Shown: positions 1-53,118 of the stretch, piece after piece
How the letters are laid out: each line of letters starts with the position of its first letter
Numbering within the stretch: position 1 is the first letter of the stretch
Assembly (NCBI RefSeq): GCF_000014565.1
Contig: NC_008270.1
Location: 1-64,000, forward strand
Source: Rhodococcus jostii RHA1
Lineage (GTDB): Bacteria; Actinomycetota; Actinomycetes; Mycobacteriales; Mycobacteriaceae
DNA length: 64,000 nt
Direction of reading: 5' to 3'
Translations under genes and position numbers: made by a program
Notes under the pieces: generated by a model
The model's input: the letters and a program-made list of their open reading frames with translations, nothing else
The model's database searches: none
Told to the model about the DNA's origin: nothing

Positions 1-63
1 CCGTCGGGAGGGTACCCGGGCTGCGCCCGGGGCCTGAACCGACTGGGCGGCAAGCCGCCCAAT

Positions 64-174
64 AACGGAATTCACCCAACGCGCTGCGCGCAGGGTCACG
101 GGTTAGCTTGCTGCATAACGGAATCCGGAAAAAGCAAAATGATCACTTCGGAAGTGTTCATTACCAACGGAATT
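64..174. repeat. three short direct repeats at the left edge
   Basis: AACGGAAT occurs at 64-71, 117-124 and 166-173, about 50 bases apart, in the non-coding stretch below the first gene. A GC hairpin (GGGCGG-CAAG-CCGCCC) sits at 45-60. The role is unknown. Three short copies are too few to call iterons. Confidence 0.4.
128..158 (-). terminator. intrinsic terminator after the DUF4192 gene
   Basis: Read on the minus strand, CACTTC and GAAGTG form a hairpin with a one-base loop (144-156), followed by ATCATTTTGCTTTTT. It lies about 75 bases past the stop of the minus-strand DUF4192 gene. Confidence 0.6.
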
Positions 175-232: not shown

Positions 233-1222
233 CTACTGGTCCTGATGGGCGCGCACCGCCGCCGCACGCAGCTGCTCCCACAGTGCCGGGTTCATCCCGT
301 AGTTGAGAAACTGCTCGAACAGCTTCCCGAAGGAGTGCGCAGGATCGAGCGCACGGCCCACGTTCACCGCCTCACGTGCCAGCGCGGCGTGACGGCTCAC
401 CCAATGAAACACTCCGGCAAGAATGATCACCGCACCGGCGAGATCATGGGGCAGTACGGCCCCGACCTGGCGCATTACCTCGGCGGCGGCATCGGCATTG
501 TGTGCGTCGACCCGGGCGAACAGCAGATCGCGCACCGGCACATCGTGCATCGCGGCCGCGATGATCGCGGCGTGCTCGTCCGTGACGCTGATGCCCCGCT
601 CCCCCGCTCCAGCGGTTCCCCCCACGTACGGTGCCAACGCGAAATCGTAGGCACGGTCGGCGGCGTTCTGCGGGTCCCTAGCGGCCAGAATCACGCGCTC
701 GCGCCCAAAACCAGCGGCCACCATAGCGGCGCGGTCTGGACCATGCTGGGCCGGTGCGAAACTCGCTCGCATCTCGGCGCGGGTCATGAGGGTGGTGGAG
801 CCGACCACTAGTGCCTCGGCGATGATCGGGTGCGCCGCCAGATCGACCGGCATGCCCGGCTGCCCGATCAAGGACCCGGCCCCGTGCCACTGACGCACCA
901 GACCATCGGTGAACACGAACACCGGGGTCACCGCATCGGGGCGAAGCCGCTCGAGGATCGCGCCCACCACATCACCCCGCTCGGCCGGGCCGAACACCAC
1001 CGCCAGCATCGACTGGCTCTCCTCCAACGGTGCGGCGCTCTCGAGGGCGTCCAAGATGCGCCCCGACTCCCGCTCCGCATCGTCACCCAACTGGACCAGC
1101 ATCACCGCCGCCGGGTGGCGGTCAAGGCTCATCACCGCCACCTCGTCGACCGGAAGATGACCGCCCAACGCGACCGCACCGGCAACAACATCGGACGGCG
1201 AAGACATACGAAAAACACTCAC
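233..1222 (-). CDS. DUF4192 domain protein, intact copy
   Basis: This 329-residue protein matches the DUF4192 family, which is common in actinobacterial plasmids, phages and chromosomes and has no established biochemical role. It spans the whole domain, with the early segment VVAGAVALGGHLPVDEVAV and the later FAPAQHGPDRAA block. The GTG start at 1222 is supported by AAAGGGG six bases upstream. It is the second of two tandem minus-strand copies; the upstream one (1433-2409) is frameshifted. The two share a leader with a hairpin at the same distance from the start, so they arose by duplication of a whole transcription unit. No transmembrane segment is apparent. Confidence 0.85.
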   Translation of the reverse strand: MSVFRMSSPSDVVAGAVALGGHLPVDEVAVMSLDRHPAAVMLVQLGDDAERESGRILDALESAAPLEESQSMLAVVFGPAERGDVVGAILERLRPDAVTPVFVFTDGLVRQWHGAGSLIGQPGMPVDLAAHPIIAEALVVGSTTLMTRAEMRASFAPAQHGPDRAAMVAAGFGRERVILAARDPQNAADRAYDFALAPYVGGTAGAGERGISVTDEHAAIIAAAMHDVPVRDLLFARVDAHNADAAAEVMRQVGAVLPHDLAGAVIILAGVFHWVSRHAALAREAVNVGRALDPAHSFGKLFEQFLNYGMNPALWEQLRAAAVRAHQDQ

Positions 1223-5517: not shown

Positions 5518-6252
5518 CTACCGTTCCACGTCGAAGCTGTTAATTTGAAAGAACTCCCACCCACCGACGTAGTCCTGCGCTCGCGTGTTCATCCAGTCGG
5601 TCATTCCCTTGTCGCCACCGCGTTCATACGCACTCCACATCGCCTCGACCTGGTCGGGCGTCAGCGCCAAGGTGATCAGCCGATCGCGGGCATACTCGCG
5701 CGGTCCCGGACCCTGAACAGCATCGATTCTGATCTTGCCGCCGTATTTGGCCAGCGCCTTACCTTGCTTGCTGCTTCGCATAGTCGACATCGCCGCGCGA
5801 CGTGCGCTCTGCGTAGATGCCGCGCGTTTGGCCTTGTGGGCTAGGGCTTTGAGGGTCTCTGCTCGTGGTTTAGCGATTCGCTGCCGACCTTCCGGGGCCA
5901 GCCAGCGTTCCACGGTGCGTCGAGAGACCCCAAGATCGCGTGCTGCGGCGGCAGTGTTGATCTCGCTCCGTTTGCCGGGCCCGTAAGCGGCAAGTAGCTG
6001 AGCCTTGAGGTTGGCGGATCCAGGTCGACCGGAAGTGTCGGCGCCTCGGCGTCCAGTCAGCTTGCCGAAGAATTCTGATTGCATCTTTCCGCGCTCAGCG
6101 CGCAGCACTTCACGCACCACTGTCTGGGCAACACGAAGTTCCTTGGCGGCTCTTACGACATTGATCTGGTTGTCCACCACAGAGCCGTAGTCCGCCAGAC
6201 TGTCGGCGATCCGCGAATAGGCAGTGCGGCTGAGGGGCTTCCGTGCCATCAC
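5518..6252 (-). CDS. tpg: telomere terminal protein (Tpg)-like protein
   Basis: This 244-residue protein has the layout I know from Streptomyces Tpg, the protein covalently linked to the 5' ends of linear replicons. A helix-turn-helix with ARDLGVSRRTVERWLAPEGR lies near residues 106-124. A basic Ala/Arg segment follows. The C-terminal block YARDRLITLALTPDQVEAMWSAYERG ends in GWEFFQINSFDVER, corresponding to the LTVALPP and FTDI-EF blocks of Tpg. It directly follows the Tap-like gene (TGATG overlap), the same pairing as tap-tpg in Streptomyces. The start is GTG 6252 or ATG 6249. The identification comes from memory of the family, without an alignment. Confidence 0.6.
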   Translation of the reverse strand: MMARKPLSRTAYSRIADSLADYGSVVDNQINVVRAAKELRVAQTVVREVLRAERGKMQSEFFGKLTGRRGADTSGRPGSANLKAQLLAAYGPGKRSEINTAAAARDLGVSRRTVERWLAPEGRQRIAKPRAETLKALAHKAKRAASTQSARRAAMSTMRSSKQGKALAKYGGKIRIDAVQGPGPREYARDRLITLALTPDQVEAMWSAYERGGDKGMTDWMNTRAQDYVGGWEFFQINSFDVER

Positions 6253-9200
6253 GAATCACTTCCCTCGCTGATATCGGCGGACATCGACTCAGCCGGTGCG
6301 ATCAGATCCGACTTGCCCCGGTAGCCCTTGCCGTCCAGGTACTGCTGATGTTCAGCGAGGAGTGCGGATCCTTCCGGCTTATACTGGCCGAAACCACGTC
6401 CGAATTGCTTCGGTCCTCCAGGCCACGCCAGCTGGGGATCGGATTCATCCGACACGTAGAGCACGGTGTCCTTGGTGACTGCGACGGGCCATTGTCCGGT
6501 GTCTTCGCCGATCTGAGCAATTCGGTACATGATGTTGGCCCGCGACTTGGCGACGATGTGGTGGTGACGCTCCGGTGAATATCCTGGCCGTCCTGCCAAG
6601 TGCAAATCGGAATTGAGAATGCCGATGGTGTGCGTATAGATGACTTTGTTCTGTTCGCGAGCCAACTGCGCGTCGAGATCGTCCTTGACATCCAAAGCGG
6701 TGCGCGCATCCCGGATCCGTTCGTACCACGGGACGAGGACCCGTCCGTGATCAGGCCACACGTAGGCCTCCAGAATCTCTGGTTCGTACCCGAGACTGCT
6801 GGCACGTTCGAGGGTGGGTGTAGTCACCCACTTCGGCTCAGAAATCGACAAACCCATCGGGTTGAGAGGATTCGGAAGCCGCCAGTCCGCGCACTCGGGA
6901 ATCTCCACGAGCCAGTACCCGGGGAGCTTGCGATCGAACGGCAGTCCGTTCGAATGATGCACAGGTTCGCCGATCGGAAGTTCGAGACCGGCGATTCCTG
7001 CCGCGTACGAACCGCCACGGTCGAAGGCATGGACGTAACGGCACTTCGCTTCCTCGTCAGTCAAGGTCCGTGACCAGTTGATATCCGCTTCGAAGATCTG
7101 GAACTTCTTCGCGAACTCCGCGTCCGACGATGCGAATACGCGCTTCCACTCCTTCGGCCGGGCGGCGATCATCAGGTCGATGCCCGTCGATGCCGGGCTC
7201 ACAGCCCAGGGGAACCGCAGAGCACCTGCAAGCAGTGACAGGCGCCGCGCCAGAGTGGCGGGTGCCGGCGAGTCGCCAAGAATGGGCATCTCCTTGGGGT
7301 CTTGGCTCATGCCGGAGACTAGTGCCACCCAGACACCACGCGTCTCGCCCTTCCACACGCGGGTCCAAGTGCCGAGCCGGTCCCCCTCCTTGCCGCCGAG
7401 CTGCCAGCCCTCGGAGAGAGCCTCTGTGACGAACGGAGATTGTGCGGTCAGTTCCTTGATCCGGTCGTTTCGATTGCGCTTGCCCAAACTGCTGGTGTCG
7501 ATTCCCACGTGCTGCGCCATCGCGTCGGTGATCCAGATCTGCCCAGGCACCGACCATTTGTCTGACGTCCACGTGCCGAGGTTCAACGTCGCTACGAGCT
7601 CCGCGACATCGCCGACATGGGTGATCGGCGCGGCAAGGTCGTGACGGGTGCCATCGGGAAGCCATGCGCCATCGACGTCGAGTACTGCCGCGGGTGCGGT
7701 GAAGGTGGTCGGTGCTTCTCCTGCTGCAGGATTCGGCGCCGGGGTCGTCGTGGTCGGCTGCTGCGTGGTCTCCGCTGTCGCGACGATGGCCGGCGTTGCT
7801 GCAGCAGTGTCAGGAGACGTCGTTTCGACGGGAGCCGACTCCAGCTCGTCCACAACCATTGGCGAAGGCTGTCCGACTGTGTCGCCGGTTGCTGCAGCTG
7901 CAGATCGGGTGGCGGCGGTGCTCTGCCACCAGCAGGGAAGGTGCATCACCAAGCCGTCGATCTGCCATCCGGCGTCCTCGCCGCCGCACAGGGCGCAGGT
8001 GGAAACCGGTGAAATCTGCACTCCATCAGCGGAATGCCCCTCGGCATCGGTCTCGATAGCCATCTCAGGCTCCTGTTCGGAATGAGAGCTGGTCAGGCTC
8101 ATGACTTCGTTGGACGAATCACCCGAAGCTACGCCGGGCCCTGGACTGTTCAGATCGGCGAGCCAACCGTCGAACAGAGCCGGACCACCGGGTATATCAG
8201 GCGTGGAAGAGTCGCTGGAATCGCCGCCGGGTGTCGGGTCACTTGATCCTGCATCGCTGGTTACTTGGTCTTCCGGATCATCGCTACCGAGTAACTTGTG
8301 TAGCCGCAGTGCAACCATGCGCTGCCTGCGGTTTTCGCACTTGACCATCCGTTGCACCGTGTACCGCGGCATCCGGCCTTTCCGTTCCTCCGCGATCAGC
8401 ACGCCCTCGTCATAGAGAGCCCTCAAGGCGGTACCACGATCGATCTGCAAGGTATCGGTCATCGTCTGACCAGTGGCCTTCAACACCTGTTCGAGGGCCA
8501 TCGGGTCCAACAAGACTTGTGGTTGACCATCGCACGGCCGCGGGTTGGCGACGACATATCCCAACCGAACGCCTCGACCTTCCGCACGCCATCGAGGGGT
8601 GCCGTCGGATGTTTCACCCACCACACTGCGCCGCCATCCAAGACATGCAGCCATCGACCAATCCGCTGGAGCTTGCCCGGTGTCGACGTCTTCCACGTAG
8701 GCGTGACCATTTCTCAGTGCGTGTACCAACAACTCCCGTACTCGCGCACCGGTCCGCATGGGCAGATCTGGGTCAGTCGCCGCAGCAGCGGCATCAGACA
8801 AGCCCATCGTGACCAGGTCCCCGACCTGCGCGACTTCGTTCTCTGTTAACGCCCCGACATCAACAAGGAAACGTGACATCGCATGCCAGCCCGCCCACAG
8901 AGACCCCAAAGCGTCTGCCTGACGAACACTCTCGCCACTCGTGCGCAAACGCTCGCTATACCGCTCACCTTCGGCAAACGCCTCAGCGCGGACACTGTCC
9001 AACCGAGGACATAACCACTGCAGGTACGTGGCCATCAACAAGGCACGGCCATGACGGGAATGCGGAGTATCGAGTTCCTTCAAAACGTTCAGTTCGATTT
9101 CCCGCGCCTGCAACGGCACCACGAGCATCCGCTGAGCTGCAGATCCTGGCCGCGGCATGATCTCGGAGGTGACCAAAGCAGACGCGCGGGGTGGGGTTCC

Positions 9201-11627
9201 GTCCAGAACACCGAGACCATCACGTGTGCTTCTCGAGCGTTGCTCACCGTTGTGCACCATGCGAGCGAACTCTTCGAGCGCCTTCTGCGCAGTCCCGAAG
9301 TCTCGGGTTGGTGCGACATCGTCCGCCCAGTACAGAGCATCTTTTGCGGCGTTAAGCTTGATACGCAATGCATTCAATGTGTCGCCGTTGCCCGACATCG
9401 ATGTCGCCGGTCGCCGGCGATCCCATTTCTCTCCCCAGTGGTGCATCGCCAATGACGCGAGTGATGTCTTGTAGCTGTTAGGCGATCCGACCAACGTAAG
9501 AACCCACGGGTTCGGACCCAATGCGGACCTGAATACCTGCCCAAGTAGAGCGGCCGAAACCCGCGTCGGGGTGCGTTCGAGCATCGAGCCGGAATGAAGA
9601 AGGAATGCTTCTCGGATCCTTATTGGGTCGGGCGTCGGTGCGGGAAGGTCATACATCTTCAGGGGGCCGGTCAGCAGAACGGGGGCTACCCGTCCGCCGT
9701 TCTCGTCGATGGCTCCCCCAGCATGAACGAAGAACCACTTTCCCTGATCATCGCGGCGCCACCCGGTGGAGCGGTAACGCACCACCCGTTGGATTTCGCG
9801 CCCACCTGCGCCCTTGAGTGCATCTCGCAGCTTCGCCACTCCGCTGGGGCGAGAGTCGTAGGCAGGCGGACCTGGCAAGGTATCGACCCAGCCGCAATCC
9901 CGGTACTCCTTCGCCGGGATCCGAATCCGCAGAAACTCTCGGCTCTCCGGATGGGTGTAGCCGATAACCACTGCGGTGAGTTCTTGAGGTGCGGCGGGGT
10001 TGACTTCACTCTGACCGGCCATCGCCGCTCGGCCCATCAACTCCGGCTCGTCGACGTCAATACCCGCTTCGGCAATTTCGAGATACTCCATCTCAACGAT
10101 CCGGGCATCGAGGTCCAGTACGAGTTTCGCCTGTTGATCACCGCTCTTGGTCGTGACGATTTCGACCAAGTTCCCGTCAATGATCCGATACACCGGAGCG
10201 ATAACATTGCGCCCCCGGATCGTGTTCAGCGGCGTAACGAGGCTTTCCGAGCCAGACCGGACCGACTGTGAATCAACTGGGCTGAGCGAGTCCTGAACCG
10301 CACCCGGTACGGGCTCAAGCTCGGGATCTTGCAGAATCGGCGGAATGGGAACTCGCGCGACATCGTGTGCCGCTCGCGCTGCAACACGCGCAGCACGCCA
10401 TGCGGTCATGGCATTCTCGACCGCTTCTCCCGCCCAATCGGTGCCTTCAGCCGCGGCCTGCTGTCGAACTTTGTCCAGAAGTTCAGTCAGATCTTCGAAA
10501 CGTCGCTCCGATTCGAGCGCCCAACGTTGTGCGCGTCGGAACTCTTCGTCTCCGTCCCGCCCATCTGCACGATCAGCTCTGGCGGTCGCCTCTGCCAGCG
10601 CAAGTTCGATTAGTGCTTGCTTCTCGATTACGTCGGCAGCAAAGCCGTGGGCAGCGACCTCCCCAGGCCGAACAGGGATGAGACCACCCCACGTCGAGTC
10701 GGTCAACCATTGGCCGCCATCGACGTGGTCAGTGAAATCAGATTTAGGTGCCGCCGGTGCGGACAGCAAGAGCTGGACCTGGGCACCACTGCCACCCAAT
10801 AGAGATGCGAGTTCGATACCCCGCTTCCATCCGACGGAGTCGCGATCAAGCACTACGCGAACCTCAGCGCCTTCGAAAAGGTCAGCACACGAGAGAGGGA
10901 AGTTCAGTCCGCCTTGAGCATTGGTCGTGGCAACCAGTCCAAGCGACTCGGCTGTCTCGACATCCTTCTCCCCCTCGAGTAACCACACAGGCGAATGGCT
11001 CGAGATTGCCGACAGCAGTTCCGGTAGTCGATACAAGACCGGTTCAAAACCCTCCGGCTTACGCTTGCGCCGGGTCCCTGCGGCATCCACGAAAACCTGT
11101 CGGAACTGCTTGTGCCGGCCAGCTTCACAGCTCGTGCATTCCTCTCGGATCACTTCCTGCACCAAGGCACCGTCGGCTGATACGTACGGGTAGACCTTGA
11201 CCCGATCCCACCGGTGTTGCGCGTCCGGTGTTACGTCTGGAAACGCGATTCGGGCGGGCAGTCGTCCTCCCTTCGGCCTACGCCGCCCAGCACCACGTTG
11301 GTGCGGAGATCGGCCTACGCGTGTGAGCGCGTCGCGACCAAACAGCGGTTCGTCGAAGAGATCGGTCATCGACAACCCCAGGCCGTCGGCGATCTTCGAG
11401 ACGGGAGCTTCACAGCCGTGGCAGTGAAGCAGCACCATTCCTCCCCGATGCCCATCGACCCAGGTCACTGACATTGACGCGTGACGGTCGCCATGTATCG
11501 GGCACCGTGCCATCAGTTGGGTAGAGCCGCGTTCGGTCACCCCGCCATTGCGTTCGGCAGCAGCACGAACCCGGTCGAATGACGACATCCGGCCGTTCTC
11601 AATAGCTCCAGCAGTGATAGCAGTCAC
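6249..11627 (-). CDS. tap: primase-helicase-Tap fusion protein
   Basis: This is a 1792-residue multidomain replication protein. A CHC2-type zinc finger is formed by C42, H45, C69 and C72. A toprim-like domain has EGEKD at 218-222 and DRD at 261-263. A helicase-type ATPase, as in DUF927/phage primases, has Walker A GSPNSYKTS at 714-722 and Walker B YWADD at 766-770. A second zinc ribbon (C1211, C1214, H1229, C1232) leads into a Pro/Thr-rich linker. The last 470 residues resemble Streptomyces telomere-associated protein Tap: GWQL, the FDRGGSYAAG block, LPGYWLVEIPE, TTPTLERASSLGY, SRANIMYRI and VTKDTVLYVSD. The GTG start has GAGG upstream; ATG at residue 14 is possible. The inferred role is replication initiation plus telomere end-patching with the Tpg-like partner. 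The fusion itself is unusual. Confidence 0.75.
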   Translation of the reverse strand: MTAITAGAIENGRMSSFDRVRAAAERNGGVTERGSTQLMARCPIHGDRHASMSVTWVDGHRGGMVLLHCHGCEAPVSKIADGLGLSMTDLFDEPLFGRDALTRVGRSPHQRGAGRRRPKGGRLPARIAFPDVTPDAQHRWDRVKVYPYVSADGALVQEVIREECTSCEAGRHKQFRQVFVDAAGTRRKRKPEGFEPVLYRLPELLSAISSHSPVWLLEGEKDVETAESLGLVATTNAQGGLNFPLSCADLFEGAEVRVVLDRDSVGWKRGIELASLLGGSGAQVQLLLSAPAAPKSDFTDHVDGGQWLTDSTWGGLIPVRPGEVAAHGFAADVIEKQALIELALAEATARADRADGRDGDEEFRRAQRWALESERRFEDLTELLDKVRQQAAAEGTDWAGEAVENAMTAWRAARVAARAAHDVARVPIPPILQDPELEPVPGAVQDSLSPVDSQSVRSGSESLVTPLNTIRGRNVIAPVYRIIDGNLVEIVTTKSGDQQAKLVLDLDARIVEMEYLEIAEAGIDVDEPELMGRAAMAGQSEVNPAAPQELTAVVIGYTHPESREFLRIRIPAKEYRDCGWVDTLPGPPAYDSRPSGVAKLRDALKGAGGREIQRVVRYRSTGWRRDDQGKWFFVHAGGAIDENGGRVAPVLLTGPLKMYDLPAPTPDPIRIREAFLLHSGSMLERTPTRVSAALLGQVFRSALGPNPWVLTLVGSPNSYKTSLASLAMHHWGEKWDRRRPATSMSGNGDTLNALRIKLNAAKDALYWADDVAPTRDFGTAQKALEEFARMVHNGEQRSRSTRDGLGVLDGTPPRASALVTSEIMPRPGSAAQRMLVVPLQAREIELNVLKELDTPHSRHGRALLMATYLQWLCPRLDSVRAEAFAEGERYSERLRTSGESVRQADALGSLWAGWHAMSRFLVDVGALTENEVAQVGDLVTMGLSDAAAAATDPDLPMRTGARVRELLVHALRNGHAYVEDVDTGQAPADWSMAACLGWRRSVVGETSDGTPRWRAEGRGVRLGYVVANPRPCDGQPQVLLDPMALEQVLKATGQTMTDTLQIDRGTALRALYDEGVLIAEERKGRMPRYTVQRMVKCENRRQRMVALRLHKLLGSDDPEDQVTSDAGSSDPTPGGDSSDSSTPDIPGGPALFDGWLADLNSPGPGVASGDSSNEVMSLTSSHSEQEPEMAIETDAEGHSADGVQISPVSTCALCGGEDAGWQIDGLVMHLPCWWQSTAATRSAAAATGDTVGQPSPMVVDELESAPVETTSPDTAAATPAIVATAETTQQPTTTTPAPNPAAGEAPTTFTAPAAVLDVDGAWLPDGTRHDLAAPITHVGDVAELVATLNLGTWTSDKWSVPGQIWITDAMAQHVGIDTSSLGKRNRNDRIKELTAQSPFVTEALSEGWQLGGKEGDRLGTWTRVWKGETRGVWVALVSGMSQDPKEMPILGDSPAPATLARRLSLLAGALRFPWAVSPASTGIDLMIAARPKEWKRVFASSDAEFAKKFQIFEADINWSRTLTDEEAKCRYVHAFDRGGSYAAGIAGLELPIGEPVHHSNGLPFDRKLPGYWLVEIPECADWRLPNPLNPMGLSISEPKWVTTPTLERASSLGYEPEILEAYVWPDHGRVLVPWYERIRDARTALDVKDDLDAQLAREQNKVIYTHTIGILNSDLHLAGRPGYSPERHHHIVAKSRANIMYRIAQIGEDTGQWPVAVTKDTVLYVSDESDPQLAWPGGPKQFGRGFGQYKPEGSALLAEHQQYLDGKGYRGKSDLIAPAESMSADISEGSDS

Positions 11628-11818: not shown

Positions 11819-12076
11819 TCATGCCGAGATTGAAAGTTCGTTGTCGGACGAATCGCAGACCGCATAGCGCTCGTCGTGGGCCCGTAGTTTTTCCGGGTCC
11901 AACTTCTTAAGGATGTAGTCGGGGACATCCAGGTTGTACGCACGGGCCATGACGAGCAGGGCGTAGTCGCCGAGCTCAAGTCCGAGCTCTTCGGCGCGTG
12001 CTTCGTAGAAGCTGTGCTGTTGAAGGGGTGCACGAACTGATATGCACTTGCGCGTTCCCTTGTGTGGCCGTCCCAT
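11819..12076 (-). CDS. small plasmid protein, 85 aa
   Basis: It starts MGRPHKGTRKCISVRAP and continues EARAEELGLELGDYALLVMARAYNLDVP. This pattern (a basic strand-like start, then two helices) resembles small ribbon-helix-helix type DNA-binding proteins. A short beta strand KCISVRAP precedes the helices, as in that fold. Copy E of the five-copy regulatory element lies about 100 bases upstream on the same strand, so it probably belongs to the same regulon as the conjugation genes. The assignment to the fold is tentative. Confidence 0.65.
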   Translation of the reverse strand: MGRPHKGTRKCISVRAPLQQHSFYEARAEELGLELGDYALLVMARAYNLDVPDYILKKLDPEKLRAHDERYAVCDSSDNELSISA

Positions 12077-19064: not shown

Positions 19065-21077
19065 TTACGCCACGGCCTTGGCGATCGGATCACGGAAGTG
19101 GTTGGTCATGTCCTGCAGGGCCGTTGTGCCTGATGCATCGACGACAAGCTCCCCGTAGTTTTGGTGAGTTCCGGACCCGATGAATGAGGCGAACTTGAGC
19201 CCTTCAGCACCGATCTGGGAGAGGGCGTCTGCACCGTCAGAGCCCGCCAAGGCGGTGAGGCTCGAGGCGAGCCCTCCAAGGTCCCCAGCCTGTGACTGCT
19301 GGGTGATCTGCTGTCCAGTCGTCGTGGCCGCAGACACTGAACCGAGCTTGGACGCCTCGGTCTTCTGGCCACCGCTGAGTGTGCCCACCGCGATCTTCGC
19401 GAAGTCGAGGATGTGGGGGAGTGCGCCGAGGCCGGCTCCGATGATGTCGCCGGTCTCGATGGCGTGCCAGAGCTGCTTTTGGAGTTCGCCGGCGGTGTTG
19501 GCCAGACCGATGATGTCGAGGTTCCCGACGAGGCCGACGATCATCGAGATGATCTGTGCGGCGCCGGATGGGTCGGGCATCATCGCGATCAGGGCCGCCG
19601 CGGTCTTGTAGTCGAGTCCGGCGGCGAGCTTGATGAGTGGCTCGAATAGGACGTTGATGCGGTCGAACTCGGCGTGGACAGCCTTGACCTTGGCCATCGG
19701 ATCGAGACCGGGATCGAGAACAATGTGCGGGATCCGGTTGAACAAGATGTCGAGGACTGTAGGGATGTTGTTGGCGAGGTCGAATGCGTTCGTCCCGATG
19801 TGCGTGACCTGGTTGATGAGCACGCTCGGCTTGATGATCGAGAGGGCGTCCGCCGCGAGTGACAGACCATCAGCCGGAGTGGCGGCCAGGGGGGAGACCT
19901 GGTTGGACAAGGTGTCCACCGATGTCTGCAGCTGCTGCACCTGATCCGGCGTGGAGGCATTCTGAGCCGTCCGCGCGATGGTGTCCGCGGCCTGAAATGC
20001 ACTCCTCAGGTCGATGCCTTTGACCTTGTCGACGATCTGGCCGGCGGCGTATTCGGGAGTCGAAGCGTCCGCGGTCATGAGCGTCTGTTCCACGGCCGGA
20101 TTCTGGGTTACCCAGCTAGTCGTATCGGCCAGCGGAACAAGGGTGTTGGCAACATCTGTCGCCGCCGATTCCATGCTCTCCAGGTCCGGAGCGCCGGACT
20201 GCAGCTGCTGCTGCAGGGTCTCGATGTTGCCGGCCAATCCCGGAAGATTGACCGTCGAGTAGTCGGACACCAAGGCGTTCTGCAGACCCGCGGTGGTGGT
20301 TTGAGATCCATCGCTCTGCTGCGGAGCGGAAGCAGTCGGAGGCTGGGCAAGCACTCGCCCAAGTCCTGCGAGCAATCCATCCTTGCCGGCGTTGGTCGAG
20401 CAGTAGAGGTCGTCGGGGGCGCAGTACGAACGCGTGACTGCAGCTGTCTTTCCGAACCCGCCCGGCCTGGCCCCCGCGATCCCGACTCCGTCGATGGGAG
20501 GACCGACGAGAGTGTTGTCGCCATTCGAACTCTGCCGTGGGTCGGCAACAAGACCGACGGCGATCAACTTCTCTGCCGGGATCGGTCCCTTGTCGTGTCC
20601 GATCAACCATGCCAAGTCGCCGGCCACGTCCGCACCCTGGCTGTAGCCGCCGAGTGCGAACAGAGTGTTCGGGCATTGCGTTGCACGGGTCTGCATCACG
20701 CGCGCGCCGGCCGCGATGCCAGATGCCTTACTGGTGCCATAGGTCTTGCCCTTGTTGAAGGCGGACGCTTCGTACGCCGGATAGGTGATCTTGATGGAGC
20801 TGCCGAACAGCTGGGAAAGAGGATCGGTTACCTGCTTGAGTAGACCCTTCGCGACGTCAGGATTAGCGGTCGAGTCCGTTTCGAACGTTCCCGGCATCAT
20901 CACCACTTCCACTGCCGGGCAGCCCGATGATGCCGGCGCCGCCTCGGCCTGACTTGGCGACACAACCGCGATGAGGGAGGCGAGGAGTGCAGCGAGCAGG
21001 GAGGCGACGAGCAGGGGCACCCGGGCGCTGTAGTTGGCGTGACCGGCCTCAGGTGTTGGTGTGTGAAGGTTCGTCAT
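19065..21077 (-). CDS. large secreted cutinase-family protein
   Basis: This 670-residue protein has a long signal region (hydrophobic 22-40) and a cutinase-like alpha/beta hydrolase domain. The nucleophile motif GGYSQGA has Ser146. Cysteines C53/C135 and C219/C226 match the family's disulfides. The acid is D222 or D223 in CAPDDLYC. Ordinary cutinases end soon after with a catalytic His in an H-x-x-Y setting. Here about 400 residues of mostly helical sequence intervene, and a THQNYGELV motif (H638) occurs near the C-terminus, so the domain may be split by a long insertion. Cutinase-family enzymes cleave lipid esters. A role at the mycolate cell envelope is an inference. Confidence 0.8.
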   Translation of the reverse strand: MTNLHTPTPEAGHANYSARVPLLVASLLAALLASLIAVVSPSQAEAAPASSGCPAVEVVMMPGTFETDSTANPDVAKGLLKQVTDPLSQLFGSSIKITYPAYEASAFNKGKTYGTSKASGIAAGARVMQTRATQCPNTLFALGGYSQGADVAGDLAWLIGHDKGPIPAEKLIAVGLVADPRQSSNGDNTLVGPPIDGVGIAGARPGGFGKTAAVTRSYCAPDDLYCSTNAGKDGLLAGLGRVLAQPPTASAPQQSDGSQTTTAGLQNALVSDYSTVNLPGLAGNIETLQQQLQSGAPDLESMESAATDVANTLVPLADTTSWVTQNPAVEQTLMTADASTPEYAAGQIVDKVKGIDLRSAFQAADTIARTAQNASTPDQVQQLQTSVDTLSNQVSPLAATPADGLSLAADALSIIKPSVLINQVTHIGTNAFDLANNIPTVLDILFNRIPHIVLDPGLDPMAKVKAVHAEFDRINVLFEPLIKLAAGLDYKTAAALIAMMPDPSGAAQIISMIVGLVGNLDIIGLANTAGELQKQLWHAIETGDIIGAGLGALPHILDFAKIAVGTLSGGQKTEASKLGSVSAATTTGQQITQQSQAGDLGGLASSLTALAGSDGADALSQIGAEGLKFASFIGSGTHQNYGELVVDASGTTALQDMTNHFRDPIAKAVA

Positions 21078-24418: not shown

Positions 24419-24499
24419 GTGTTCGATGTAGCTAGCACTGCGGAAGCGGGTTCGCGGCTTCGCCGGCATGAAGTCACGAGTGGGCCGGTGCTGCGATGA
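24419..24499 (+). CDS. 26-residue leader peptide coupled to the TcpE-like gene
   Basis: GTG 24419 is preceded by GGGAGG and opens a 26-codon reading frame (MFDVASTAEAGSRLRRHEV and on to GPVLR). Its TGA overlaps the ATG of the TcpE-like gene as ATGA. Good ribosome binding site and exact coupling suggest that it is translated, at least to load ribosomes onto the next gene. Too short for homology. Confidence 0.45.
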   Translation: MFDVASTAEAGSRLRRHEVTSGPVLR

Positions 24500-25116
24500 G
24501 CGACGAGCGCACCACCGGGGAAGTCATCAAGAACTTCACCCGCGCTCGCAAGGTGCCGCAGCTGATCGGGCGTACACCCGACGGAAAGAAGCTGCCGTTC
24601 GGTCCCTATACCGTTCCGCAGGCCGTCAGCGGCGCAATCGTCGGTGGGCTCCTGTGGCTCCTGCATCCACTGTGGCTTCGGGACAGCATTTCCTGGAACG
24701 TCGGATTCTTCGCCTTCTGGTCACTGGGCACCGTCTTTGTCGTTGGCAAACTCCGGTTTGCCGGCCGGAGCCCCGCCTCAGTGGCACAGGGAATCTGCGC
24801 CGCAGCCTTCGCGCCGGCCGGTGCCAAGATCCAGATCAACGGCCGCCGGGTGACCATCCGGCCACCCCACCTCGTGCGTCCGAGTGGCTACATCACTGCC
24901 GACCCCACGGCCGCCGAACTCAGCGCCACGGTCGTCCCGCAGGCCGTGCACATCGCCGCCGCCGAGGTCACCGAAACCGCATCGGCGGAACCTGTCGCAC
25001 CACGACCGCAGACCTCCGCGCCGGTGCCCACACCGGCAAGCGGGCCCACCCATCGCGCCGGCCGATCGAGCGTCAAGGAACTCCTCGCTCTGGCTGCTGC
25101 AGGCACCTCCGAGTAG
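24496..25116 (+). CDS. TcpE-family conjugation protein
   Basis: This 206-residue protein has an N-terminal cytoplasmic part, two hydrophobic helices (AVSGAIVGGLLWLLHPLWL and WNVGFFAFWSLGTVFVVG) and a long Ala/Pro-rich tail. The layout and position match the TcpE family, small membrane proteins of Gram-positive conjugation systems. The ATG overlaps the 26-residue peptide stop. It precedes the VirB4-like ATPase by 14 bases. Confidence 0.75.
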   Translation: MSDERTTGEVIKNFTRARKVPQLIGRTPDGKKLPFGPYTVPQAVSGAIVGGLLWLLHPLWLRDSISWNVGFFAFWSLGTVFVVGKLRFAGRSPASVAQGICAAAFAPAGAKIQINGRRVTIRPPHLVRPSGYITADPTAAELSATVVPQAVHIAAAEVTETASAEPVAPRPQTSAPVPTPASGPTHRAGRSSVKELLALAAAGTSE

Positions 25117-25130
25117 AAAGCACCGCCACT

Positions 25131-27641
25131 ATGGAACAGCCGACACTGTCAATGGCCGCGAACATCCGGTGGACGAAGTCCGGCGTTGTCTGGGCGGACT
25201 ACGTGCTCACGGGCATCGACTACGGTTACCGCCCCGACGTGGACAAGCGCACTGCTCGTACCCTGCACACGATGCTCGTCCGCGCCCTGCCGGGCGAGTC
25301 ACTGTTGATGGGCATCGCAGCATCGTTGAGCGCCGAAGCCGTCGTTTCCCGAATGACCGAAGGCGTCGATCTCGATGCACACCCGGACTGGGCAACCGAA
25401 TGCGAAGCGACTCTCGACTCGATCGAGCTATACCGCCCGGGGCAGAGGATCTACTGGCTGAGCATTCCGCTGACCACACCCAAGGTCGTCGATCAGGTCA
25501 AGGCCGCGGCTCATTCGGCCTGGACCACACTCTCCGACTACATCGGGCTGCCGCGGACCGCAATTGATGATGACGAGATCCGGGCCCGTGTCCGGCAGGC
25601 CAACCGGATCATGGCCGACATCCCCGGTGTCTTCGATGCGCAACCTGCCACTCCCGCTCAGATGGTGTGGCTGTGGCAGCACGCGATGACGCGCGGACTG
25701 CATGTCGACCCTGACCTGCCCGACGCAGCCGTGACGCCAGGAGCAAAGTCAGGTGCCGCCCTGTCCGCATGCCGGATCGACGAGGGCGCCCAATCGGATC
25801 GAGAGAAGGCTTCGGGTTGGCGAGGCAAGGTCCCGACGTTCAGTCGGGTCCTGAAAGTCGACCAGCCATACGAATTCGTCGACCACCCTGCCTCCTACCA
25901 AGTGCTCCTCGCGCTCGCTGACACCCCCGCCGGTGGCGTCTATTTCCCCGGCTCGGAGTTCTTCACCCTCGCTGACGACTTCGGCGATATCGATGTCGAC
26001 TTTGCCGTACGGCTCAAGGTCACCGCCGGTGCCGATGTCATGCGAGCGAACAAGCGCGCGCTCGAGAACCTGAAGGAGCAGTACGAACAGCGGGAAGGAG
26101 AGTTGGCCGGCGGCCAAGGTGTTCTCGACCTCGCTGCCGCCGCGTTGACCGAATACACCTCGTTGCTCGAGACGAACCGCGATGAGGTCGAGGTTGCCTG
26201 GACGGCGTTGTTCGCGGTAGGAGCTGATTCCGAGGAGCGTGCACTCGCTGATGCGAAGGCATTGGTGAAAGCGTTCGAACAGCAGGAATACAAGGTGGTC
26301 GCGCCGGTCGGCTACCAGGAAGACCTGTGGTGGGCGATGTTGCCTGGCGTTCCCACCTCGAAGATCGTCCGCGAGTTCGCGCAGATCACCACATCGACGC
26401 ATTTCGCGGCGTACATGCCGTTCATTCGCAACGATCTCGGCGATGGCAGCGGTCCGCTGTTGGCACTGAACATCACCACTTCTCGGATCGGTGTGGTTCA
26501 CCACGACGTCGCCGGAAAGTCCCTGCGCGACCAGTCCGGATCCTTCGCGGTCACCGGTGAGCTCGGATCGGGCAAGTCGGTCACCATGAAGGTGATCGCC
26601 GGCCAGGTCGTCGACTGCGGGGGGCAGGTCATCGGTATCGACCAAAGCGATCTCGGCGAGTACGCCAATTGGGCCAAGGCCGTCACCGAGGCAGTCGTGG
26701 TCGACCTCGTCGAACCCGAATACAGCATGGATCCACTGAGGATCTTCGAGGCCGGGGTCGCAGCAGAAATGGCCCAGTCCGTGTTGTTGACACTGCTCCG
26801 GATCCAGCCTTCCTCAGACCTGGGCATCGCATTGGCGAAGGTGCTCGAGCCCGAGTACCGCGCAGAGCACCCCTACCAAGGTTTGGGCGAGCTGACCGAA
26901 CACCTCCTGTCCGGGGCTTGCCCGATCGCCCACGCCCAAGATCTCGGCGAAGCGATGAACGTCTACGCCCGCCGCACCTACGCCGCGGTACTGTTCGGCA
27001 AAGATCTACCCCCGCTGCCCATTACTGCTCCCGGCATCATTTTCCGCACCCACAAGGTCGACTTGCCGACCCAGCTGCAGACCGAGAAGCAGCACCTCTA
27101 TGAGAACCTGCCGCTGGAGAAGCGGTTCGGTCACGCGGTGTACACCCTGATCGCGAAGGTCGCCCGCGGACAGTGCTTCGCCGACCCCGACCAGATGGCG
27201 TTGTTCCTCGTCGACGAGGCACACCACCTCCTGGGCGCCGACGACGGAGTCGACATCGTCGAGGACTTCGTGCTGCAGGGCCGCAAGTCCTCTGCCGCCG
27301 TGGGACTCGGCGACCAGGACTGCGCGTTCGGCACCCCGAAGCTGCGCGGACTGATCAAGACCCGCATCGCGCACCGGCATACAGACGAAACCCTCGCCAA
27401 GCGCGCCATTGAATGGCTCGGCCTCGACCCGGACGACTACGGACTGGTCAAGCAATACATGGAGCAGACAGCTCCGGTAACCGGAAAAGACAAGTACGTC
27501 GAACCGCACCGCCGCGGTGAAGGTTACATGCGCGATGGCAGCGGAAACGTCGGTCGTATCAAGACGCTGCTGCCGGCAACCGAGTCTCGCCGAAGTGCAG
27601 TGTCGACCACTCCGAAGGACAACAAGCTGGTGAAAGCATGA
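25131..27641 (+). CDS. VirB4/TcpF-like conjugation ATPase
   Basis: This 836-residue protein has Walker A GELGSGKSV at residues 476-484 and Walker B ALFLVDEAHHLL near 690-700. Between and after them are helical blocks typical of VirB4/TraC ATPases, which power assembly and substrate transport. The N-terminal half (about 1-450) is the substrate and oligomerisation part. A long coiled-coil-like stretch (about 305-390, ALENLKEQYEQREGELAGG) is visible. The start is ATG 25131, MEQPTLSMAANIRWTKSG; the open frame runs further upstream but only as a shadow of the TcpE-like gene. It overlaps the next gene by ATGA. Confidence 0.9.
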   Translation: MEQPTLSMAANIRWTKSGVVWADYVLTGIDYGYRPDVDKRTARTLHTMLVRALPGESLLMGIAASLSAEAVVSRMTEGVDLDAHPDWATECEATLDSIELYRPGQRIYWLSIPLTTPKVVDQVKAAAHSAWTTLSDYIGLPRTAIDDDEIRARVRQANRIMADIPGVFDAQPATPAQMVWLWQHAMTRGLHVDPDLPDAAVTPGAKSGAALSACRIDEGAQSDREKASGWRGKVPTFSRVLKVDQPYEFVDHPASYQVLLALADTPAGGVYFPGSEFFTLADDFGDIDVDFAVRLKVTAGADVMRANKRALENLKEQYEQREGELAGGQGVLDLAAAALTEYTSLLETNRDEVEVAWTALFAVGADSEERALADAKALVKAFEQQEYKVVAPVGYQEDLWWAMLPGVPTSKIVREFAQITTSTHFAAYMPFIRNDLGDGSGPLLALNITTSRIGVVHHDVAGKSLRDQSGSFAVTGELGSGKSVTMKVIAGQVVDCGGQVIGIDQSDLGEYANWAKAVTEAVVVDLVEPEYSMDPLRIFEAGVAAEMAQSVLLTLLRIQPSSDLGIALAKVLEPEYRAEHPYQGLGELTEHLLSGACPIAHAQDLGEAMNVYARRTYAAVLFGKDLPPLPITAPGIIFRTHKVDLPTQLQTEKQHLYENLPLEKRFGHAVYTLIAKVARGQCFADPDQMALFLVDEAHHLLGADDGVDIVEDFVLQGRKSSAAVGLGDQDCAFGTPKLRGLIKTRIAHRHTDETLAKRAIEWLGLDPDDYGLVKQYMEQTAPVTGKDKYVEPHRRGEGYMRDGSGNVGRIKTLLPATESRRSAVSTTPKDNKLVKA

Positions 27642-32960: not shown

Positions 32961-35321
32961 ATGACAACCACACCTCCGCAGCAAAGTGGTGCGCGGTTTG
33001 CACGCTCTCCCCGAATCAGTTCCTTGCCGCCGCGGCCGCACACCTGGCTTCGCGACAGTTTCTGCTTGGGTACCACCGCGGTCGGTGCCAGCGCCGCCGC
33101 TCCTCTGTTCGGATACAGCGCCCTCGCGATGCCCGCCGCGGCGGGCTTGTCGATCGCTGCCGTCTACGCCGGAGTAGCCGGCAAACGTAAGCAGCTTCGC
33201 GATGTCGACGTCGACGAGGTGATCGAAAGGCTGTGCCCGATCGTGGGGCTGCCGGAGGCCACCCGGGCGGTGCTGTCGACGTCGAAATGGAGTCGTGGAT
33301 GGCCGGGACTTCCGGGGAAACTCACCGTGCACTACGACTCGACACAGGCACTGAATGACGAGACGTGGCTCGCTGATATCTGCGGGGTCTTCGAAGATCA
33401 AGGGTGGGGTTTCTTCGAACTCGACAAGCACGACCCCGCCCGCCGGCGCCTGATCTTCACGCCCGCTGCCGAGCCGGAACGAGAAGTCTCCGACAGCGAC
33501 CAGGTTGTGCGCGCGAAGCGGATCATCGCCCAGCTGTTGGGCCCGACCGCGACCGTAACCGCAATCGACGTCGCCGCCGAAACCGGCGAAGTGACCTCAA
33601 TGGAAGTACGTCATGAACTTGGTCCGAAACTGGAATCGGATGGCTACCGGACCCGCGTCGAACGAGGAATGAGCGCGACGTTGCCCGGTCGCTGGAGAGC
33701 ACGGTGGAACCTTGAAACGGATTGGGTTCGATTCGAGCAACGCACAGCATTCCCGGACAGCGTCTGGTTGCCGGCACCGGACCTCGACCCCGGGGCCGAT
33801 CTCTTGGCCAGTTACGACTCGGTGGAAATTCCGTACGGAATCGACGAAGACGGCAACGAGGTTGTGTGGAGGCCGGCGATCGACCCGAACCTGATGCTGA
33901 TCGGCCCACCCGGAAGCGGTAAGACCGTGACCGCCCACAATCTGTTGGTCAACTTCTCGCGACGTGGATGGCCGATCTGGGTCCTCGACGGCAAGTACGT
34001 CGAATTCCTGGGATTCCAGGACTGGCCCAACGTACAAGTCGTCGCTACGACCATCGAGCAGCAAGTGGCGTTGGTCCACCGCGCCCGCGATCTCATGGAG
34101 TTCCGCTACCAGAAGATCGTTACCGGTGAGGCGACCGAAGCGGACTTCGAACCAGTACTGGTCTTTCTCGACGAATGGGCCGAGTTCCGCGGCAACGTCG
34201 AAGATTGGTACTCCAGGGTCAAGCCGAAAGGCGGCACCCGACAGCCACCGGTGCTCAACATGCTGGCGTCGATGGCACGCAAGGCCCGAACCTCGCGAGT
34301 GCATCTAGTCTTTGGAACTCAGCGTCCCGACGCGCAGTACTTCCTCGGCGACATGCGTGACAACTTCGCCATGCGCATCTCCATGGGCCGGCTCTCACCA
34401 CAAGGGGCGCTCATGATGTGGCAATCACCGACGATCGGTACCAGCGTGCCCCGCAAGTGCCGCGGCCGCGGCACCACCGTCACCGACAACTATCAGCCCA
34501 TCGAGATCCAGTGCTACCGCGTACCCGACCCCCGCAAGACGCGCGCCGGCACCTTCGAGTCCGATCTGCTCGACACCCTCCGACCGCCGATAACACGCCA
34601 TCCGCGATTGCTGATCGTCCCACCGGACGAACTTCCGGACATCGACGCCACCGACGACATGTCCGATCCAACACCGCTGACGTACTTCGACTACATCGAG
34701 GCCGAATGGGTACTGGCCAGCGACCGGCCCGACCTCGATCCGGTACTCAGAAGAGCGAAGATGACCCACGAAACCGATCGGCGTCTCGCGTCACCGACGG
34801 CGCTTCTCGGGCTGCTCGGGGGCCGCGCCGAGCCCACCAACGAAGCGGCGGTAGAGCTCGACGACTACCGCACCCCGACGGCCGTCAAGAACGGCGCCAC
34901 TGACGCCGCCTCGTTCCTCGATCAGCTCTCTGCTCCACAACTCGGTGAATCCTCCGCCGCTCGGGGGGAGTCCTCACGCGCTCGACTAGCCCTGGTCAAA
35001 GAGACAGCAGCAACCGAACCAGAGATTCCGGCGGACGGCGGAGCCGAGGTCTTCGGAATACCGGAGGATTCACCTGACACCTACGAGGACCAGTACGGGC
35101 CGGTCCGCGATGTTCGCGCTGCCGATGTAGCACTCGGGGACCTGTTGCTGATGGAGGACATCGACGAATGGGTCGTCGTAGACACCGATCCCGAACCGGA
35201 CATCATCGAAGACTCATTGCTGTCACTGACCTGGCGAAGCGACACCGATGAGTTCGGCGACCTCGCCTTACCTGATAGTTCCTACGTATCGATTCGCAAA
35301 CCCATCCATGTATCTGGCTGA
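32961..35321 (+). CDS. FtsK/SpoIIIE-type motor, TcpA-like coupling protein
   Basis: This 786-residue protein has hydrophobic segments near residues 33-72 (FCLGTTAVGASAAAPLFGY, AMPAAAGLSIAAVYAGVAG). Walker A GPPGSGKT lies near 315-322 and Walker B VLVFLDEWAEF near 400-410. A further motor block is FGTQRPDAQYFLGDMRDNFAMRISMG. The C-terminal 200 residues are acidic and probably flexible. TcpA proteins move DNA to the conjugation pore. In Streptomyces, TraB-type relatives move double-stranded DNA without a relaxase. The start is GTG or ATG 32961 at the end of the long regulatory gap. Confidence 0.85.
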   Translation: MTTTPPQQSGARFARSPRISSLPPRPHTWLRDSFCLGTTAVGASAAAPLFGYSALAMPAAAGLSIAAVYAGVAGKRKQLRDVDVDEVIERLCPIVGLPEATRAVLSTSKWSRGWPGLPGKLTVHYDSTQALNDETWLADICGVFEDQGWGFFELDKHDPARRRLIFTPAAEPEREVSDSDQVVRAKRIIAQLLGPTATVTAIDVAAETGEVTSMEVRHELGPKLESDGYRTRVERGMSATLPGRWRARWNLETDWVRFEQRTAFPDSVWLPAPDLDPGADLLASYDSVEIPYGIDEDGNEVVWRPAIDPNLMLIGPPGSGKTVTAHNLLVNFSRRGWPIWVLDGKYVEFLGFQDWPNVQVVATTIEQQVALVHRARDLMEFRYQKIVTGEATEADFEPVLVFLDEWAEFRGNVEDWYSRVKPKGGTRQPPVLNMLASMARKARTSRVHLVFGTQRPDAQYFLGDMRDNFAMRISMGRLSPQGALMMWQSPTIGTSVPRKCRGRGTTVTDNYQPIEIQCYRVPDPRKTRAGTFESDLLDTLRPPITRHPRLLIVPPDELPDIDATDDMSDPTPLTYFDYIEAEWVLASDRPDLDPVLRRAKMTHETDRRLASPTALLGLLGGRAEPTNEAAVELDDYRTPTAVKNGATDAASFLDQLSAPQLGESSAARGESSRARLALVKETAATEPEIPADGGAEVFGIPEDSPDTYEDQYGPVRDVRAADVALGDLLLMEDIDEWVVVDTDPEPDIIEDSLLSLTWRSDTDEFGDLALPDSSYVSIRKPIHVSG

Positions 35322-52660: not shown

Positions 52661-53118
52661 CCAACGCCCTGCGTAAGCGACTCGCCTCCCGACTGCCGGA
52701 GGAGCACCGCGACAAGGGTGCCGTCACCCTGATGACGGTGGTCTTCGCCCCTGTCCTGATCTTTTTCGTCTGGGGACTGATCGTCGACGGTGGCGGCATG
52801 CTCACCGCCGACCAGCGAGCCGACAACGTCGCCGAGGATGCTGCCCGAGCAGCCGGTCAGCAGATCATTGGATCGGTGAGCGCCCGCGGCATCGACACGG
52901 TCGTCGACCCGGTCCGCGCGACGGCAGCCGCCAAGAGATACCTGTTCGAGGCCGGCGTCGACGGCGACGTGATCCCCACCGGCCCGCGCACCCTCCTGAT
53001 CACGACCCGCATCGTCTACAACTCGAAACTTCTGCCATACCCCAGAACGAAACTGCTCGTCGGTACGGCTGCGGTGAATCTCAATCGCACCAACGCCGGG
53101 GAGGTGTACATACCGTGA
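52657..53118 (+). CDS. TadG-like protein
   Basis: This 153-residue protein has HRDKGAVTLMTVVFAPVLIFFVWGLIVDGGG, a prepilin-like segment with Met at position 5. The globular part has NVAEDAARAAGQQIIG and VDGDVIPTGPRTLLITTR. Such proteins are minor pilus or pseudopilin parts. The start is ATG 52657, coupled to the TadE-like gene. Its stop overlaps the LysM-BTAD gene. Confidence 0.7.
   Translation: MTNALRKRLASRLPEEHRDKGAVTLMTVVFAPVLIFFVWGLIVDGGGMLTADQRADNVAEDAARAAGQQIIGSVSARGIDTVVDPVRATAAAKRYLFEAGVDGDVIPTGPRTLLITTRIVYNSKLLPYPRTKLLVGTAAVNLNRTNAGEVYIP

Follow-up and report, generated by a model that had tools for sequence, protein, structure and literature searches.

How the ends of linear actinobacterial chromosomes are filled in has so far been an open question. 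Among the closest described systems is that of plasmid pAL1 of Arthrobacter, for which Kolkenbrock and colleagues in 2010 reportedly described a protein, pAL1.101, with a zinc finger, a toprim domain, part of a superfamily 3 (SF3) helicase and partly conserved motifs of family-B polymerases; the terminal protein of pAL1 is said to be nucleotidylated. Here we analyse a system of this kind in Rhodococcus jostii RHA1. The window, which comprises the first 64,000 nucleotides of contig NC_008270.1 (assembly GCF_000014565.1), carries a gene, P0001, in which a primase, an ATPase and a domain homologous to the Streptomyces telomere protein Tap are fused, and next to it a terminal-protein gene, P0002. 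An initial annotation of the window had proposed that P0001 encodes an all-in-one end-replication enzyme, an idea that had, in outline, reportedly already been printed for pAL1 in the 2010 description.

Parts of a 2015 paper by Yang, Tseng and Chen (PMC4513846) report that Streptomyces Tap and its terminal protein Tpg by themselves carry out protein-primed synthesis to 13 nucleotides, that Tap adds nucleotides to its terminal protein, and that initiation is stimulated by Mn2+. The same parts state that Streptomyces Tap has 'not any DNA polymerase motif', propose an independent origin, argue for a new class of polymerase that arose by convergence, and consider a helicase probably necessary for clearing Tap off the template. 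A Tap/terminal-protein pair 99% identical to the one analysed here is described in parts of PMC7276702 from Rhodococcus plasmid pRWAY03; it is 33-37% identical to the pair of pAL1, with which it is compared there without polymerase analysis. No link of Streptomyces Tap to family-B polymerases is drawn in the parts of PMC4513846, PMC3572947 and PMC7276702 considered here.

Our reading is that P0001 is an end-replication enzyme of the pAL1.101 type and that its Tap domain represents a divergent family-B polymerase of the protein-primed kind, most likely serving one of the two plasmid ends, the type-A end; from the sequence comparisons below we put the probability of this reading at roughly 0.8. 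The kind of fused enzyme is already known, from pAL1 of Arthrobacter and from the 99%-identical Rhodococcus copy in print, and with the pAL1.101 type the fused arrangement is not unprecedented. What is new here is an alignment of the Tap domain with phi29-type family-B polymerases across motifs A to C, indicative of remote homology; the occurrence of two telomere types on one replicon, with the fused gene paired with the type-A end; and a covarying GGC[A/G]AGCC hairpin at the ends of plasmids that carry the fused enzyme.

Domain structure of the fused protein

P0001 is an open frame of 1792 amino acids with a GTG start on the minus strand (6249..11627). Its primase region, residues 1-305 (10713..11627, minus strand), contains a CHC2 zinc finger at residues 42-72 (CPIH from 42, CHGC at 69-72) and a toprim domain (EGEKD at 218-222 and LDRD at 260-263, with DRD at 261-263). 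The DNA primase family phrog_6088 matches residues 31-300 (E 4e-16), and in the PDB a profile of the region made from 61 sequences matches 1d0q, the zinc domain of a primase (E 4e-4), and the primase 5guj (E 0.036). Toprim_3 is detected in a Nonomuraea relative (E 7.5e-9) and Zn_ribbon_DnaG in the protein of pAL1 (E 1.3e-4); on P0001 itself Zn_ribbon_DnaG reaches only E 0.077. The core of a P-loop ATPase (9318..9488, minus strand) follows, with Walker A GSPNSYKTS at 714-722 and Walker B YWADD at 766-770, in which G714, K720, D769 and D770 are invariant across the 61 sequences. The initial annotation named this part a helicase; the evidence for the name is the two Walker motifs, and the part is at most a putative helicase.

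The Tap-homologous, polymerase-like domain occupies residues 1310-1792 (6252..7700, minus strand). Similarity to Tap had been predicted for this part, and the C-terminus indeed matches the Tap profile NF047542 with E 1.3e-41 (143.1 bits, under the curated cut-off of 600). The same profile also matches weakly in 4 of 14 control genomes, above the cut-off in none, so weak matches to it prove nothing by themselves. No N-terminal XRE-type helix-turn-helix (HTH) was found in the Tap domain or in the whole of P0001 in a scan with HTH_3. CHC2 finger, toprim, P-loop ATPase and Tap domain stand in that order within one chain, and the earlier description of primase, ATPase and Tap-homologous part in a single chain of 1792 residues is confirmed, the sequence strings that it named being found at their stated positions.

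The protein is matched, in part or whole, in 452 of 72,556 plasmid records (E <=1e-5), in 30 of them over at least 80% of its length, so the observation is not due to chance. Three Rhodococcus records are 100% identical to P0001. The same fusion occurs in pAL1 and ten further annotated actinobacterial plasmids, and the next gene is P0002-like in 7 of these 11. Two loci, L126 and L154, had been suspected to be without a Tap domain, and the suspicion was wrong. Other Tap-like proteins were also noticed among the plasmid records. A protein of Planobispora pPR2 (L028:2553-5897) combines a DUF927 ATPase (E 7.6e-14) with a Tap-like domain whose motif C reads DID, and on pMyong2, which is recorded as circular, a Tap-like protein (L029:4017-5903) has the aspartates of both motif A and motif C.

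Similarity of the Tap domain to protein-primed polymerases

The Taps were grouped into three families: F, the fused type; S, the Streptomyces Tap; and R, an unfused Rhodococcus type. The families are mutually related (hhalign probability 99.9 for F-S, 99.8 for F-R and 95.9 for S-R), and 67 divergent Taps from all three were combined in one alignment, A4; L151, whose frame is broken, was dropped from A4 and from alignment A2. Two sets of protein-primed family-B polymerases served for comparison, a first set of 38 sequences (phi29-like ones together with Cp1, PRD1 and others) and a wider set of 69. Against the first set A4 scored 42.4 (E 4.6e-4), in an alignment covering motifs A to C and the stretch past them; the score of reversed controls was about 13, and the maximum was 19.3 in 100 column permutations and 25.0 in 100 block permutations. 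Against the wider set it scored 44.0, with a maximum of 22.0 in 60 block permutations, and across both sets E ranged from 3e-4 to 5e-4. The likeness to family-B polymerases proposed in the initial annotation appears here as a remote similarity, with scores of 42-44 against no more than 25 in 160 block permutations. F and R together scored 46.5 against the wider set (E 1.5e-4), and the helicase and primase regions of P0001 scored 16.5 and 16.6 against it. When 399 Taps were searched with the polymerase profile (hmmsearch), 27 domain rows had a sequence E of less than 10, with none among reversed and none among shuffled sequences. Motif A accounts for 18 of the 27; no row is significant by itself (best E 0.094), and the Taps are mutually related. 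A PHROGs scan of the 67 members of A4 gave HTH-type families and scattered weak matches (25 of 56 families listed).

Five columns of A4 are invariant: D1536, G1669, P1714, D1720 and G1747. Three of these residues align with residues that are invariant in the polymerases, and G1669 lies one position off. When the wider set is aligned, D1536 is paired with the phi29 aspartate of motif A, D1720 with the second aspartate of motif C and G1747 with a glycine after motif C; the two phi29 aspartates are D249 and D458 in the usual numbering. In the alignment with 38 polymerases motif C is one residue off, and motif B is one off in both alignments, with equal K-x7-G spacing. The residues invariant among seven diverse polymerases include the motif A aspartate, the lysine, asparagine and glycine of motif B, the second motif C aspartate and the later glycine.

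In P0001, motif A is HAFDRGGSYAAG (residues 1533-1544, 6996..7031, minus strand), with D1536 as the hhalign partner of the phi29 motif A aspartate. Motif C is KDTVLY (residues 1719-1724, 6456..6473, minus strand), with D1720 and Y1724. Motifs A and C had been placed at these aspartates before, and both placements stand: each aspartate is present in 67 of 67 Taps. Motif B had been placed at SRANIMYRI (1695-1703), and this placement has to be given up, as the counterpart of this helix in phi29 lies past motif B and ahead of motif C. The true motif B is most likely NKVIYTHTIGILNS (6609..6650, minus strand), with K1661 and G1669 in the K-x7-G spacing of phi29; the glycine is found in 67/67 Taps and the lysine in 50/67, and the hhalign register is off by one. 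The Streptomyces Tap reads GLDVNMAF and SDCVVY at the motif A and motif C positions.

The F-type proteins retrieved from the database (the best 120 of 250) comprise 69 short ones of less than 1150 amino acids, 50 long fused ones and one other. In 68 of the 69 short proteins, the named ones of which are mostly mycobacterial, an R-like domain stands ahead of the F-like one, forming tandem Taps. Both aspartates are kept in the rear domain of all 69, in 50/50 long fused proteins and in the one other (120/120). The motif A aspartate occurs in none of the 68 front domains, and neither does an aspartate at the aligned motif C position. That the motif A aspartate is dispensable where a second copy of Tap exists fits a catalytic role.

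Several points weigh against the polymerase reading. The hhalign probabilities are low (33-39% for A4, 52% for F and R together), and the E-values of about 3e-4 stand for single comparisons. For F and R together against the 38 polymerases, the observed score of 43.0 faces block permutations of up to 28.2 (20 done). The signal arose only once both profiles were broadened: a narrow phi29-like alignment of 32 sequences gave a probability of 0.1-0.2 against each Tap family, as did reversed controls. Taken singly, F scored 37.5 and 33.6 against the first and the wider set, R 19.8 and 28.8, and S 20.2 and 16.7. S alone is not above its controls (20.2 against 20.6, and 16.7 with the wider set), and the Streptomyces Tap is therefore tied to polymerases through the fused family only. 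A PDB profile search with A4 gave two matches, neither of them a polymerase. The Pfam family DNA_pol_B_2 was detected in only 4 of the 67 members of A4 (best E 0.0057) and in none of the 30 rescanned one by one. As for the motifs, the first aspartate of motif C (of DTD) is present in 6/67 Taps, the Asn-Ser-x-Tyr of motif B (KxxxNSxYG) is absent from them, and, on the N-terminal side of motif A, none of the acidic residues that might indicate a 3'-5' exonuclease is invariant or nearly so in A4. The tandem front domains have a glutamate at motif A in 18/68 cases and an aspartate one position to either side of motif C in 42/68, which makes the loss of the motif C aspartate less clear than the plain loss at motif A. 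Finally, no family assigns the middle part of P0001 to a helicase superfamily, and no Pfam helicase matches it.

Two other explanations of the domain have been considered. The C-terminus might be a telomere-binding recruiter devoid of catalysis, with a host polymerase such as DinB adding the first nucleotide. The scarcity of the first motif C aspartate would suit such a role, as would one Streptomyces labelling procedure, given in part of PMC3572947, in which Tap is used with DinB1; however, Tap and Tpg alone suffice in vitro according to the parts of PMC4513846 cited above, both aspartates are invariant throughout A4 and the F-type C-terminal domains, and the motif A aspartate is lost in every tandem front domain. 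We regard a recruiter as improbable. Alternatively, Tap might be a polymerase of independent fold whose resemblance to phi29-type enzymes reflects convergence of the active site, which is what parts of PMC4513846 argue and what the Streptomyces family, being by itself without a profile match, could be taken to favour. Against this, the similarity extends, in order, over 201-260 aligned columns, including the parts between the motifs and the region past motif C, and convergence appears very improbable. On the reading we prefer, a divergent family-B polymerase, the comparison of relatives suggests that the Tap telomere proteins of bacteria are modified versions of the polymerases with which some phages copy their DNA ends. 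If true, what was published as a new polymerase class lacking motifs would be an old class in disguise. The fused family would link Tap, as an intermediate, with the phi29-type polymerases, and it points to two aspartates without which activity should be lost.

Two telomere types on one plasmid

The genome consists of four contigs, C1 to C4, of 7,804,765, 1,123,075, 442,536 and 332,361 bases. C3 starts at base 1 of the window with a telomere-like end, and its other end is telomere-like as well, of a different type; GCTXCGC is found at both. The ends point to a linear replicon, in agreement with the initial annotation. The left end of C3 is referred to as type A, and the seven remaining contig ends, which are mutually alike, as type B. 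The type-A telomere (1..110, assigned to neither strand) has GCTGCGC at 20 and 83, and of 200 shuffles of its minus strand 198 fold less well than the strand itself.

Type A was found 17 times in plasmid records, all of Rhodococcus and in one place each, with 7 matches at 93-100% identity and 10 at 65-75% (one over 28% of the query only); several of the 17 records are near-duplicates. All 17 records have the fused gene at the end that is type A. At the other end type B occurs in 15 of them, in some by a short match; for NZ_CP118329 and NC_021080 this end is not among the matches listed. The fused protein matches 32 Rhodococcus records, and in all of the 26 listed (H1-H26) the gene lies less than 10 kb from the record end and points to it. 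Nine of these 26 are without a type-A match, which speaks against the proposed pairing. Parts of PMC7276702 describe one end of pRWAY03 as unlike the others and call it the left end; in the record, type A is at the right end. The all-in-one enzyme of the initial annotation has its domains in one chain, and may be all-in-one for one plasmid end only, because the other end is a different telomere type. A DUF4192 family or domain is annotated at the stretch matching window positions 233-1222 in 16 of the 17 type-A records listed.

The type-A telomere contains a hairpin, GGGCGGCAAGCCGCCC (45..60, plus strand), the sole one of its kind in the window. A hairpin around GGCAAGCC, starting 43-50 bases from the end, is present at both ends of pAL1, pAP13 and pC1c and at the type-A end of C3 (7/7), with a short stem at the right end of pAL1. 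The GGC[A/G]AGCC hairpin was found at none of the seven type-B ends. In draft genomes, 7 of 21 locus ends beside fused genes have the GGCAAGCC or GGCGAGCC version within 100 bases of the end, and several of the others are no contig ends. There are 11 such hairpins in 806,548 bases, 9 of them within 100 bases of an end. When 18 plasmid loci and the 7 type-B terminal stretches were scanned for the hairpin, one internal match came up, in a locus without a fused gene (L107). Seventeen of the loci do not reach a record end; the eighteenth is the end of pAL1, taken at a stricter threshold for which the stem at its right end is too short. Three records that have the fused gene followed by a small gene (L096, L097 and L101) are labelled circular, again a point against our reading; no telomere hairpin was seen in them within the stretches at hand.

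Covariation was assessed on an alignment (A5) of 12 sequences picked for the GGC[A/G]AGCC core, so that the three inner pairs are given by the choice itself. The hairpins of L159 and L167 and the second one of L156 were left out as near-duplicates or found late. Each of the four outer pairs changes on both sides in some sequence, and 92.9% of the cells are paired. Covariation is seen in 13 cells, compared with 4.3 in shuffles (0/500 as high), a test weakened by kinship among the 12 sequences. The outermost pair is unpaired in 5/12, and sliding the partner destroys the pairing.

A second Tap system

A Tap of the R type is also encoded on C3 (open frame 88,004-89,779), followed by an intact R-type terminal-protein gene (90,877-91,671). 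Close to the C-terminus this Tap is broken by an insertion whose frames look transposase-like by eye. Among the best 60 of 106 records, at least 11 type-A plasmids out of the 17 have an R-type terminal protein. We infer one Tap/terminal-protein system for each plasmid end. The fused protein might instead serve both ends, type B included: it is the sole uninterrupted Tap found on C3, and pAL1, with one such enzyme in the stretch seen, has the hairpin at both of its ends. Since the hairpin is missing from the type-B ends, and since C3 and most of the type-A plasmids have the unfused terminal protein, we consider it unlikely that one enzyme serves both.

C1 (7.8 Mb) has type-B telomeres at both ends. 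Copies of the R-type Tap and terminal protein were found only on C2, C3 and C4, besides a 29% match to the fused gene, so that the ends of the chromosome may rely on genes carried by plasmids. We lean, with some reserve, towards a broader picture in which all actinobacterial Taps, the chromosomal ones of Streptomyces included, derive from phi29-type polymerases and retain the pair of aspartates, and in which this type of plasmid is a chimera whose telomere types each have their own Tap/terminal-protein system, the fused one recognising the GGC[A/G]AGCC hairpin.

Proposed mechanism

The proposal draws on domain order, homology to Tap and pAL1, invariant residues, remote phi29-type similarity, telomere-like ends and the pairing of gene and telomere, all of them sequence-based; catalysis and end specificity of the fused enzyme we infer, taking the chemistry from the homologous Tap and pAL1.101. 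The N-terminal primase and central ATPase would help to replicate and unwind the plasmid ends and to clear or restart the fork. The C-terminal Tap domain would bind the hairpinned 3' overhang of the type-A telomere and attach the first nucleotide to the terminal protein that P0002 encodes; this nucleotide would probably be dCMP, because the strand begins with CC. With the terminal protein as primer, the fused enzyme would make a short oligomer that a host polymerase then extends. Most likely the type-A end would be served by the fused enzyme and the type-B end by the second, unfused Tap/terminal-protein pair. The fused enzyme has an ATPase in the same chain, which may be compared with the helicase proposed for clearance of Streptomyces Tap, and in the asymmetric plasmids nature provides a test case for the specificity between telomere and enzyme.

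Neighbouring genes

Downstream of the fused gene lies P0002 (5518..6252, minus strand), a terminal-protein gene of 244 amino acids whose frame overlaps P0001 by 4 bases (GTGA, positions 6252-6249). The initial annotation had described a coupled, Tpg-like neighbour. The coupling stands; the likeness is closer to the terminal protein of pAL1 (34.5% identity over 45-237, E 8e-19) than to Streptomyces Tpg, whose profile NF047541 matches weakly (E 6.3e-5, 23 bits, under the curated cut-off of 90).

Upstream of the fused gene is a small open reading frame (ORF) of 85 amino acids (11819..12076, minus strand); none of the four such ORFs scanned has a Pfam match. A short ORF (62-91 amino acids) is annotated at this position in the loci of 9 of 11 annotated relatives, and some of these small proteins resemble ribbon-helix-helix proteins, by eye only. 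Elsewhere in the window, an ATPase with an AAA_10 domain (VirB4-like on our reading) and one of FtsK/SpoIIIE type (24468-27641 and 32961-35321) are possible transfer genes, a protein with a cutinase domain is found at 19065-21077, and a frame of 1047 amino acids at 53115-56258 has LysM and a weak match to phage tail X.

Comparison with known systems

The fused protein of the Rhodococcus pRWAY03 Tap/terminal-protein pair is 98.8% identical to P0001, essentially the same gene, and that plasmid likewise has ends of two types. The protein pAL1.101 of Arthrobacter Rue61a also combines zinc finger, toprim, ATPase and a Tap-type C-terminus in one chain, of 1707 amino acids, and is 36% identical to P0001 over 75% of the protein. 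Like the RHA1 plasmid, pAL1 is linear and has a terminal-protein gene adjoining the fused gene; it carries the hairpin at both ends, whereas the RHA1 plasmid has two telomere types. The Streptomyces Tap has a homologous domain, as the F-S probability given above indicates, with the same invariant residues as P0001, and in the loci seen its gene is followed by a small gene in the position of the terminal-protein gene. It differs in being about 735 amino acids long, in having an N-terminal XRE-type HTH and in having no primase or ATPase; HTH_3 was detected in 11/67 members of A4, and in 10/10 Streptomyces members when scanned singly. Compared with a phi29-type protein-primed family-B polymerase, Tap differs in giving only insignificant matches as a single sequence and in being without exonuclease residues and the Asn-Ser-x-Tyr of motif B. 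The two resemble each other in the order of the motifs, the motif A aspartate, the second aspartate of motif C, the K-x7-G spacing of motif B and the glycine after motif C.

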